Assembly (NCBI GenBank): GCA_019359495.1
Contig: JAHHHF010000100.1
Coordinates: forward strand, 1-64,000
Direction: 5' to 3'
From: Goleter apudmare HA4340-LM2
GTDB taxonomy: Bacteria > Cyanobacteriota > Cyanobacteriia > Cyanobacteriales > Nostocaceae
Length of the DNA: 64,000 nucleotides
In this document: piece by piece, positions 17,986-21,180 of the stretch
How the letters are laid out: the number at the start of each line of letters is the position of its first letter
How positions within the stretch are numbered: the stretch's first letter is position 1
Notes under the pieces: generated by a model
What the model was told of the DNA's origin: nothing
Seen by the model: the letters and a program-made list of their open reading frames with translations, nothing else
The model's database searches: none
Translations under genes and position numbers: made by a program

Positions 17986-19530
17986 ATGGTGCGTCTAGCC
18001 CTGCTGAGTGTATCTAACAAAACTGGTATTATTGATCTAGCCCGTAGCTTGGTTGAAGAATTCGACTTTGATTTAATCAGCAGTGGGGGAACAGCCCAAG
18101 CCCTCAAAGATGCAGGAATTCCAGTTACAAAAGTTTCTGATTATACAGGTTCACCAGAAATTTTAGGTGGTCGAGTCAAAACGCTACATCCTCGAATTCA
18201 TGGCGGGATTTTGGCGCGGCGGGATGTTCCCCAAGATATTACAGATTTAGAAAATAACCAAATTCGCCCGATTGATTTAGTGGTGGTGAATCTATATCCT
18301 TTCGAGGAAACGATCGCTAAACCAGGGGTAACATTATTAGAAGCCGTTGAACAGATTGATATTGGTGGGCCAGCAATGCTACGGGCATCATCGAAAAACT
18401 TTGCCCATCTGGCGGTGTTATGCGATCCAGCACAGTATGACGAGTATTTGCAGGAATTGCGCCAAAATAACGGCGAATCATCCCTAGAGTTTCGGCAAAG
18501 GGCAGCTTTAAAAGGATTTTTGCATACGGCTAGTTACGATCGCGCGATAGCGCAAGCGCTGAGTTGTCAGTTCGCCTCTTACCTGGCAGAAGCACAGCAA
18601 TACACCCTTAGTGGCACACAATTGCAATCTCTGCGTTACGGCGAAAATCCCCATCAACCCGCCGCCTGGTATCAAATTGGTACTACTCCAACGGGATGGA
18701 CAGCCGCGACAAAACTGCAAGGCAAAGAACTTAGTTACAATAACTTAGTTGATTTAGAAGCCGCACGCCGAATTATTGCTGAATTCACTGATACTCCAGC
18801 AGCAACTATAATTAAACATACAAATCCCTGTGGTACGGCATTGGGAAGCACTATTTCAGAAGCGTATCAAAAGGCTTTCAACGCTGATTCTGTTTCTGCT
18901 TTTGGTGGAATTGTCGCTCTCAATCGTCCGATTGATAATGATACAGCAAGCGAGTTAACCAAAACATTTTTAGAATGTGTGGTTGCACCGAGTTGTGAAG
19001 CGGATGCTCAAGAAATTCTGGCTGCTAAATCGAAAGTACGGGTTTTGACTCTAGCAGATTTGAGTAGCGGCCCTAAAGATACAGTGAAAGCGATCGCAGG
19101 TGGTTTCCTCGTCCAATCTGCTGATGACATACTTGCTGACACCAGCAAATGGCAAGTTGTCACCACACGTCAACCCACCACCGATGAGTTAGCAGAATTG
19201 CTGTTTGCTTGGAAAGTTTGCAAGCATGTGAAATCTAATGCCATTGTAATTACTAGCGATCGCACTACCTTAGGCGTGGGCGCGGGACAAATGAATCGCG
19301 TCGGTTCAGTCAAAATCGCCCTAGAACAAGCAGGAGATCAAGCCAGAGGAGCAACTCTTGCCAGTGACGGATTTTTCCCCTTTGATGATTCCGTGAGAAC
19401 CGCCGCCGCCGCCGGCATTACTGCCATTGTCCAACCAGGAGGCAGTTTGCGAGATCAAGATTCCATCAAAGCTGCCAATGAATTAGGTTTAGTGATGGTA
19501 TTAACTGGTGTGCGTCACTTCTTACACTAA
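17986..19530 (+). CDS. purH: Bifunctional AICAR transformylase/IMP cyclohydrolase
   Basis: Catalyses the last two steps of IMP synthesis in the cytoplasm: formylation of AICAR with 10-formyl-tetrahydrofolate, then ring closure. The N-terminal MGS-like cyclohydrolase domain (~1-145) shows the ISSGGTAQALKDAGI and GGRVKTLHPRIHGGIL segments. The transformylase domain contains the KHTNPCG motif (~269) with its lysine-histidine pair, ADSVSAFGG and the C-terminal DGFFPFDDSV. It is 514 residues, complete, with GGGG before the ATG. It stands alone, followed by the small RNA copies. Confidence 0.96.
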   Translation: MVRLALLSVSNKTGIIDLARSLVEEFDFDLISSGGTAQALKDAGIPVTKVSDYTGSPEILGGRVKTLHPRIHGGILARRDVPQDITDLENNQIRPIDLVVVNLYPFEETIAKPGVTLLEAVEQIDIGGPAMLRASSKNFAHLAVLCDPAQYDEYLQELRQNNGESSLEFRQRAALKGFLHTASYDRAIAQALSCQFASYLAEAQQYTLSGTQLQSLRYGENPHQPAAWYQIGTTPTGWTAATKLQGKELSYNNLVDLEAARRIIAEFTDTPAATIIKHTNPCGTALGSTISEAYQKAFNADSVSAFGGIVALNRPIDNDTASELTKTFLECVVAPSCEADAQEILAAKSKVRVLTLADLSSGPKDTVKAIAGGFLVQSADDILADTSKWQVVTTRQPTTDELAELLFAWKVCKHVKSNAIVITSDRTTLGVGAGQMNRVGSVKIALEQAGDQARGATLASDGFFPFDDSVRTAAAAGITAIVQPGGSLRDQDSIKAANELGLVMVLTGVRHFLH

Positions 19531-19651
19531 GAAATAGGCTAGTAGAAAGGGGAAAATTCCTCTCGCCTGCTACCTCAACCCATCTGGTGCAGTTAGTAAA
19601 GTGTCACCGCCCATACTGGCTATACTCTAAAAGCAGTGCTATTCTTTGGTT

Positions 19652-19720
19652 GTGTGAGGAGCAAGTTGAAATTAAAAAGCGCTGGGAGTGGAAACATGGC
19701 AACACGCCCCGGCGCTTTTT
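19652..19720 (+). ncRNA. Yfr2-like small RNA, copy 1
   Basis: A ~69-base RNA starting GTGTGAGGAGC and ending in a stem AAAAAGCGCTGGG / CCCCGGCGCTTTTT that doubles as a terminator. The loop has GGAAACA followed by GGCAACA, the motif type I recall for the cyanobacterial Yfr2 family. Its stem differs from the other copies yet still pairs, through paired or G-U changes, so structure is conserved. A TATTCT box sits 7 bases before the start; the -35 region is weak. Confidence 0.65.
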
Positions 19721-19846
19721 AGTTGGGTCAGTTCTACCTCCTGGTAACAGCCTTTTAAATTCGATGTGGCAAAACTTTACCAAAAACTTAATAAAGAGCT
19801 ACATAATATACTTGTTATTTTATAAAACAAGTGGTATTGTCTAGGA

Positions 19847-19915
19847 GTGTGAGGAGCAAGTTGAAGATAAAAAGCGCCTGGGGTGGAAACACGGCAACAC
19901 TCCCAGGCGCTTTTT
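19847..19915 (+). ncRNA. Yfr2-like small RNA, copy 2
   Basis: Same architecture as copy 1: 5' GTGTGAGGAGC, then a GCGCCTGGGG / CTCCCAGGCGC stem and a run of U. The loop reads GGAAACACGGCAACA. A promoter TTGTTA-N17-TATTGT lies immediately upstream with a 7-base gap to the start, so the copy is an independent transcription unit. Confidence 0.7.
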
Positions 19916-19988
19916 AATTTAATGCCAGAAAATCGCTAATTTGTCTCATAAGCTTGCCAGTTGCTAGTGCAAGTGATATAGTTTGAGA

Positions 19989-20057
19989 GTGTGAGGAGCA
20001 AGTTGAAGATAAAAAGCGTCTGGGGTGGAAACACGGCAACACTCCCAGGCGCTTTTT
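19989..20057 (+). ncRNA. Yfr2-like small RNA, copy 3
   Basis: Nearly identical to copy 2, with one C to U change in the left arm that still gives a G-U pair. Promoter TTGCCA-N17-TATAGT (19954-19982), then seven bases to the GTGTGAGG start. The DNA after the terminator (TAATTTAATGCCAGAAAA) also matches that following copy 2, so the duplicated unit includes flanks. Confidence 0.7.
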
Positions 20058-20149
20058 AATTTAATGCCAGAAAACCAAGGATTTATCGACTTGACAAACT
20101 TTCGTTTCATTCACTTGCCAGTCATTAGTGTCAGTGATATAGTTTAAGA

Positions 20150-20217
20150 GTGTGAGGAGCAAGTTAAAGATAAAAGCGTCTGGGGTGGAAACACGGCAAC
20201 ACTCCCAGGCGTTTTTT
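20150..20217 (+). ncRNA. Yfr2-like small RNA, copy 4
   Basis: Same 5' element and loop, stem GCGTCTGGGG / CTCCCAGGCG with a six-T tail. Promoter TTGCCA-N17-TATAGT (20115-20143). One A is missing from the left arm relative to copy 3. This copy ends about 125 bases before the MscS gene and its terminator should isolate the two. Confidence 0.7.
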
Positions 20218-20343: not shown

Positions 20344-21180
20344 ATGTATCCACTACAACTCATCCCAAATAAATCTATGAATCTGAATCAGATTACTCAA
20401 GTTGCACTACAATTACTGACTGAGTTTGGACTCAAAGTTATTGGTGCGATCGCTCTCTGGCTTATTGGTCAAAAACTAATTGAATTTGTACTGCGCTTAT
20501 TAAAGCGCGGTTTCAGAAGCCAGCATGTAGACGCCACCATTGTTACCTATCTTGTCAACATAATTGCTGTAACACTAAGAGTCATTCTAGTTGTTGCACT
20601 TTTAGGCTTTTTCGGCATTGAAACGACTTCCTTTGCAGCCTTATTAGCAGCTGCTGGTGTTGCAATTGGTGCTGCGTGGGGTGGACTGCTAGCAAACTTT
20701 GCCGCAGGCGCATTTTTGATTATTTTTCGACCCTTCAAAGTTGGTGACTTCATTACCGCCGGAGGTGTCACAGGGACAGTCACAGAAGTCGGGCTATTCA
20801 CCACTTATATCAATACACTTGATAACGTGTTGACTATTGTGGCAAATAATAAAATTTTTGCAGATAACATCCAGAACTTTTCTGCGAACCCTTACAGACG
20901 GGTAGAGTTGGTTGCTCAACTTCATCACAGTGTCAATCACAATGAAGCTATCCATCTTTTAAAGGAGCGGGTTAGTCAAATTGCCAACGTTCTTACAGAT
21001 CCAGCTCCAGATGTAGAAATTTTAGAGTTTAACCTAGCTGGCCCTGTACTAGCAGTAAGACCATACGCCAGCAATGACCATTACTGGCAGGTGTATTTCG
21101 ACACCAATAGAGTCATTCGGGAAACTTTTGGAGAAGCGGGCTATCCAGTTCCCGAACAACATTACGCCATTACTCGCTAA
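20344..21180 (+). CDS. mscS: Small-conductance mechanosensitive channel (MscS family)
   Basis: A homo-oligomeric inner-membrane channel that opens on hypo-osmotic stress and releases solutes. Three transmembrane helices lie at about residues 27-48, 70-92 and 100-130, and the pore-lining third helix has the typical Gly/Ala packing (AAAGVAIGAAWGGLLANF). The beta domain follows with FRPFKVGDFI and NKIFADNIQNFS-type segments. At 278 residues it is a minimal MscS. An alternative start at the second ATG, eleven codons later (MNLNQITQ), is possible since no clear ribosome site favours the first. Confidence 0.92.
   Translation: MYPLQLIPNKSMNLNQITQVALQLLTEFGLKVIGAIALWLIGQKLIEFVLRLLKRGFRSQHVDATIVTYLVNIIAVTLRVILVVALLGFFGIETTSFAALLAAAGVAIGAAWGGLLANFAAGAFLIIFRPFKVGDFITAGGVTGTVTEVGLFTTYINTLDNVLTIVANNKIFADNIQNFSANPYRRVELVAQLHHSVNHNEAIHLLKERVSQIANVLTDPAPDVEILEFNLAGPVLAVRPYASNDHYWQVYFDTNRVIRETFGEAGYPVPEQHYAITR

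Follow-up and report, generated by a model that had tools for sequence, protein, structure and literature searches.

The genome of the cyanobacterium Goleter apudmare HA4340-LM2 carries, in the 64,000-nucleotide stretch of contig analysed here (the window), four short repeated units downstream of purH and upstream of a gene for an MscS-type channel (Table 1). The units are about 69 bases long with start-to-start spacings of 195, 142, and 161 bases, exactly the layout described in an earlier sequence-only reading of this DNA, which had proposed a four-member family resembling the small RNA Yfr2. The covariance-model search that this reading had recommended as its own check places all four units inside the Rfam family RF01701 (Cyano-1, the motif name of the Yfr2 family; PMC8400943), each scoring above the 41-bit cut-off. 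RF01701 is the sole Rfam family matched in the window, and its matches are these four copies.

Table 1. Features of the yfr2 array and its surroundings (positions in the window)
Feature	Position	Strand	Evidence and remarks
purH	17986..19530	+	PF01808 (402 bits), PF02142; its place upstream of yfr2 arrays is conserved
Palindrome CAGTTAGTAAAGTGTCAC, copy 1 only	19590..19607	+	0 mismatches; 4, 6, and 4 at copies 2, 3, and 4
Copy 1 -10 box TATTCT, weak -35	19640..19645	+	Sequence
Yfr2 copy 1	19652..19720	+	RF01701, 42.2 bits; 5′ Yfr1-complementary motif, stem, 12-nt loop, U tail; fold
GTGTGAGGAG, perfect 10-nt complement of the same-genome Yfr1 core	19652..19661; also 19847-19856, 19989-19998, 20150-20159	+	
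Copy 2 promoter TTGTTA-N17-TATTGT	19812..19840	+	Sequence
Yfr2 copy 2	19847..19915	+	RF01701, 53.9 bits
Two homologous spacers, trace of tandem duplication	19919..20146	+	Spacer alignment
Copy 3 promoter TTGCCA-N17-TATAGT	19954..19982	+	Promoter scan
Yfr2 copy 3	19989..20057	+	RF01701, 55.5 bits
Copy 4 promoter TTGCCA-N17-TATAGT	20115..20143	+	Promoter scan
Yfr2 copy 4	20150..20217	+	RF01701, 54.4 bits; T run at 20217
MscS-type channel gene	20344..21180	+	PF00924; adjacency to the array not general

The anatomy of the units is that of the family. A long stem follows the unpaired 5′ GUGUGAGGAG and carries a 12-nt loop (GAAACACGGCAA), and the unit closes with a U tail; published work (PMC2662882) describes Yfr2 as having a long stem, bulged at -4, that bears a conserved loop of 12 nt. 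The predicted folds of copies 2-4 present GAAACACGGCAA as the loop of the long stem, and copy 1 folds slightly differently. All four copies end in a U-tailed stem, as had been claimed; a terminator scan limited to loops of 8 nt returned no match for this stem because the loop spans 12 nt.

Whether the substitutions between copies betray selection on the structure, as the same reading had argued, depends on how many sequences are considered. In the four-copy stem alignment, 98.6% of cells pair, with a single compensatory change beside four wobble changes and one break (a mismatched stem position in copy 1, columns 39-59), and 124 of 500 shuffles do equally well, which makes the argument from four copies alone a weak one. 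The wider family sustains it: among 149 distinct copies from Nostocaceae, 98% of cells are paired and two-sided changes occur in 12 of 18 pairs, counts that include related sequences and a structure predicted from the same alignment, and that thus express consistency rather than a calibrated probability.

Each copy is preceded by its own predicted core promoter, with 6 nt separating the -10 box from GTGTGAGG every time. The TTGnnA-N17-TATnGT promoters previously noted for copies 2-4 are found and carry extended -10 elements (TGN); copy 1, as that description implied, lacks the corresponding -35 and has TGGCTA in its place, the weakest -35 of the array. A score-based promoter scan found two promoters against 2.6 expected by chance, and our belief in them stems not from score but from their position, which is conserved across 140 related copies. 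The ortholog at the purH locus of Nodularia spumigena CCY9414 coincides with a yfr2 gene annotated at 460195-460090 and listed in Table 3 of the transcriptome paper (PMC3610870); its end at 460195 lies 6 nt after the -10 box and 3 nt 5′ of GTGTGAGG. Each copy is accordingly predicted, by its sequence, to yield an RNA of about 70 nt that begins at or just before GTGTGAGG, with its 5′ end at or adjacent to GUGUGAGG. The central claim of the sequence-only reading, a four-copy Yfr2 family with a promoter and a terminator for each copy, is supported, the covariance search having been its proposed computational check.

The likely partner of these RNAs is encoded in the same genome, where Yfr1 (RF01116) is found at 61.8 bits. 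All four copies, and the solo copy described below, match its core with 10 nt of perfect complementarity, and co-folding Yfr1 with each of copies 1-4 gains 19-20 kcal/mol in stability over the two RNAs folded separately. Duplex energies for Yfr1 and Yfr2 are no better for the real copies than for shuffled Yfr2, a comparison that is uninformative because the GC-rich Yfr1 gives shuffles low energies too; it is the exact complement and the co-fold that carry the argument for pairing. Outside Yfr1 the genome contains two more exact ACTCCTCACAC motifs (G000:C77:97560-97570 and C113:49602-49612), and the one on C77 may be either a Yfr10-like RNA or a chance match.

Work in other cyanobacteria suggests what this pairing may accomplish. 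In Nostoc PCC 7120, Yfr2 arises from four repeats and binds Yfr1 directly in electrophoretic mobility shift assays (EMSA; PMC6974561). Prochlorococcus Yfr2 expressed in E. coli lifts repression by Yfr1, and in vitro RNase E cuts Yfr2 unless Yfr1 or Yfr10 is bound (PMC6778093). Sequestration of Yfr1 is therefore, by analogy, the most likely mechanism in Goleter apudmare HA4340-LM2. Each of the four genes would be transcribed from its own promoter into an RNA of about 70 nt, whose 5′ GUGUGAGGAG would pair with the abundant Yfr1 and titrate it off its mRNA targets; the loop may contact other targets, and multiple copies would provide a greater titration capacity.

Neither the identity of the RNA nor its linkage to purH is new, both being common within Nostocaceae; the array is real but ordinary and adds a further instance of a known RNA. 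Among 218 genomes from the family, 216 have an RF01701 match above the cut-off. The 56 purH-linked loci (the window and 55 others) comprise 12 with one copy, 16 with two, 24 with three, and four with four, the first copy often lying about 85 bp past purH. The published description of yfr2 as residing at unconserved loci (PMC6778093) is thereby qualified by a purH locus conserved within Nostocaceae. This conservation does not extend through mscS, which is near yfr2 in only a few loci. In three genomes, the purH-linked copies stand 2.0-5.5 kb apart, as if the array had been interrupted by an insertion (L110, L117, L149).

The arrays appear to be mostly old, since for 127 of the 149 copies the nearest relative comes from a different genome rather than from the same array. 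Within the window, copies 2-4 are the closest relatives of one another. The spacers preceding copy 3 (19919-19985) and copy 4 (20061-20146) align end to end, with a local alignment score of 31 versus 16 at most across 300 shuffles, so copies 3 and 4 look like the product of a tandem duplication. The proposal that non-identical spacers speak against recent tandem amplification consequently fails for these two copies. Elsewhere, one array (G077:C41:260615-261203) has four copies at an exact 171-bp spacing with equal covariance scores and looks like a recent, near-identical amplification.

The only further RF01701 match in the whole genome is a diverged solo copy on the minus strand of another contig (G000:C101:14852-14919), which scores 40.2 bits, just under the cut-off. 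It represents a subtype of the form GTGTGAGGAGCGAACCAG...CCGAGACGAAACACGGCCAGTCGTCGG, with a TTGACT-type promoter; the element found upstream of main-class genes is missing. In a phylum-wide sample of 386 genomes, 82 contain an exact match to its first 18 bases, and the genes that flank it are conserved in Nostocaceae.

That element, a conserved palindrome upstream of yfr2, is the new part of this analysis. It has the form CASTT-N4-AASTGTCAC and lies about 45 bp upstream of main-class yfr2 in many cyanobacterial families. The purH-linked promoters share CASTTNNNNAASTGTCAC, which ends 43-46 bp before GTGTGAGG; it is exact in 72 of 165 copies and present with at most two mismatches in 113 of 165, with none in shuffles. 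Joined to CCTCACAC at its kept distance, it has exact matches in 35 of 293 genomes from the order, spanning many families, and the reversed control pattern gives none. The element is retained by 57 of 73 first copies (the first copy per fetched locus, including loci without purH). Two of the 55 multi-copy arrays lack it altogether, which shows that it is dispensable, and other arrays have lost it from single copies; mixed arrays, in which some copies lack it, may be common.

Half of the palindrome reaches further still. The half-site GTGACAGTT also precedes picocyanobacterial yfr2, and in some of those genomes two half-sites are oppositely oriented, as AACTGTCAC-N-GTGACAGTT. Its form GTGACASTT is exact upstream of nine of 29 picocyanobacterial copies, a set not picked by the pattern, versus 0.05 expected. 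The half-site count for other families is inflated by five genomes that were picked from pattern matches, and among the listed main-type copies from genomes not so picked it is exact in 4/10. Solo-type copies lack the half-site even with one mismatch allowed.

The whole genome of Goleter apudmare HA4340-LM2 contains three exact matches to the element. The match on contig C75 falls within a Rieske (petC-like) coding sequence and was taken as chance. A perfect yfr2 upstream element together with a -10 box also heads a locus of about 230 bp on the minus strand of contig C112 (G000:C112:45633-45866; L171, L248). This locus has no Rfam match, includes a nearly invariant GTGCAAGGAGTG by its predicted start, terminates in a terminator-like stem AAGCGCTTGGG...CTCAAGTGCTTTTT, and is conserved in 199 of 210 Nostocaceae genomes. 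It is a candidate gene for an undescribed small RNA that would share the control of yfr2.

What might read the element is suggested by marine picocyanobacteria, in which the GntR protein PMM1637, common to cyanobacteria, binds Prochlorococcus yfr2 promoters (PMC6778093). The bound promoters carry a motif named CGRE1, and reviews equate PMM1637 with PlmA. As a lead, the palindrome is a candidate PlmA site by virtue of the shared half-site, though the opposite orientation of the half-sites in some picocyanobacterial genomes counts against this, and we infer PlmA to be the best candidate regulator of copy 1. Copy 1, with the palindrome above a weak -35, would be controlled by a DNA-binding regulator, possibly PlmA, and copies 2-4, which lack the element but have better -35 boxes, would run without that regulator. 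Since only copy 1 keeps the element, it is predicted to be regulated differently from the element-independent copies 2-4. The differential regulation raised as a possibility in the sequence-only reading thus gains support from a conserved element found in copy 1 only.

The principal competitor for the upstream region is NtcA, in which case GTC-N8-TAC-N23-TATTCT above copy 1 would be an NtcA-type promoter. The pattern GTN10AC-N20-25-TANNNT does occur in 41 of 56 first copies, and PMC6974561 cites nitrogen deprivation as an inducer of Yfr2 in Nostoc. Against this, the third base is C rather than A, most of the match is supplied by the TACTTG -35 together with GTCAC from the palindrome, copies 2-4 of the window have no such site, and outside Nostocaceae the palindrome persists while the NtcA spacing is lost, being kept in one of eight palindrome copies. 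It was for this loss of spacing that NtcA was dropped as the primary reading, and we regard it as unlikely. Selection may instead act on dosage alone, the promoter differences being drift without regulatory meaning, as a copy number that ranges from one to four across genomes and the loss of the element from single copies in other arrays would allow; yet the element sits at a fixed distance in many families and is the rule in first copies (57/73), leaving this explanation somewhat on the improbable side. That the array is a terminator or 3′-UTR feature of purH and not a set of independent genes is very improbable: it is co-directional with purH and about 85-120 bp behind it in many genomes, but every copy has a conserved promoter, many genomes hold unlinked copies, and the annotated Nodularia yfr2 gene occupies the equivalent locus.

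The best joint explanation, which we hold with high confidence, is an array of four functional yfr2 genes with their own promoters, whose RNAs would titrate Yfr1, and of which copy 1 would be controlled through the element. A broader proposal is put forward tentatively, with rather less than even expectation: that one element (GTGACASTT; usually GTGNCASTT-N4-AASTGTCAC), read by PlmA as a universal cyanobacterial GntR regulator, serves main-class yfr2 from picocyanobacteria to heterocyst formers as well as the second Nostocaceae small RNA, and that, with only copy 1 under its control, the Yfr1 sponge is supplied here partly under regulation and partly free of it. If so, the shared site would tie Yfr2 supply to PlmA and, via its complex with PII and PipX, to nitrogen and redox state, and the element would offer a way into the PlmA regulon, which is still undefined. 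Expression of Yfr1 is said to be nearly constant, and PMC6974561 describes the tuning of its effect as an open question, to which regulated Yfr2 is the favoured answer. The main interest of the array lies in a shared control element and in a second conserved locus that bears it.

Compared with Yfr2/Cyano-1 (RF01701) at large, the array agrees in score, 5′ GUGUGAGGAG, stem and 12-nt loop, own promoters, U tail, and multi-copy occurrence, and differs in arrangement only, with four copies in tandem whose promoters differ from one another. Nostoc sp. PCC 7120 likewise has four repeats in its genome and Yfr1-Yfr2 binding by EMSA (PMC6974561), whereas the present genome has four copies in the array and a diverged fifth. 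The NsiR1 array upstream of hetF is similarly a set of tandem small-RNA genes in heterocystous cyanobacteria, although the RNA and locus are unrelated and NsiR1 is heterocyst-specific. The closest regulatory parallel is CGRE1 and PMM1637 (PlmA) in marine picocyanobacteria, where a regulator site likewise lies above yfr2, and the present analysis finds the half-site GTGACAGTT upstream of picocyanobacterial and of other yfr2 genes; CGRE1 is described as picocyanobacterial, and the arrangement in Nostocaceae is inverted.
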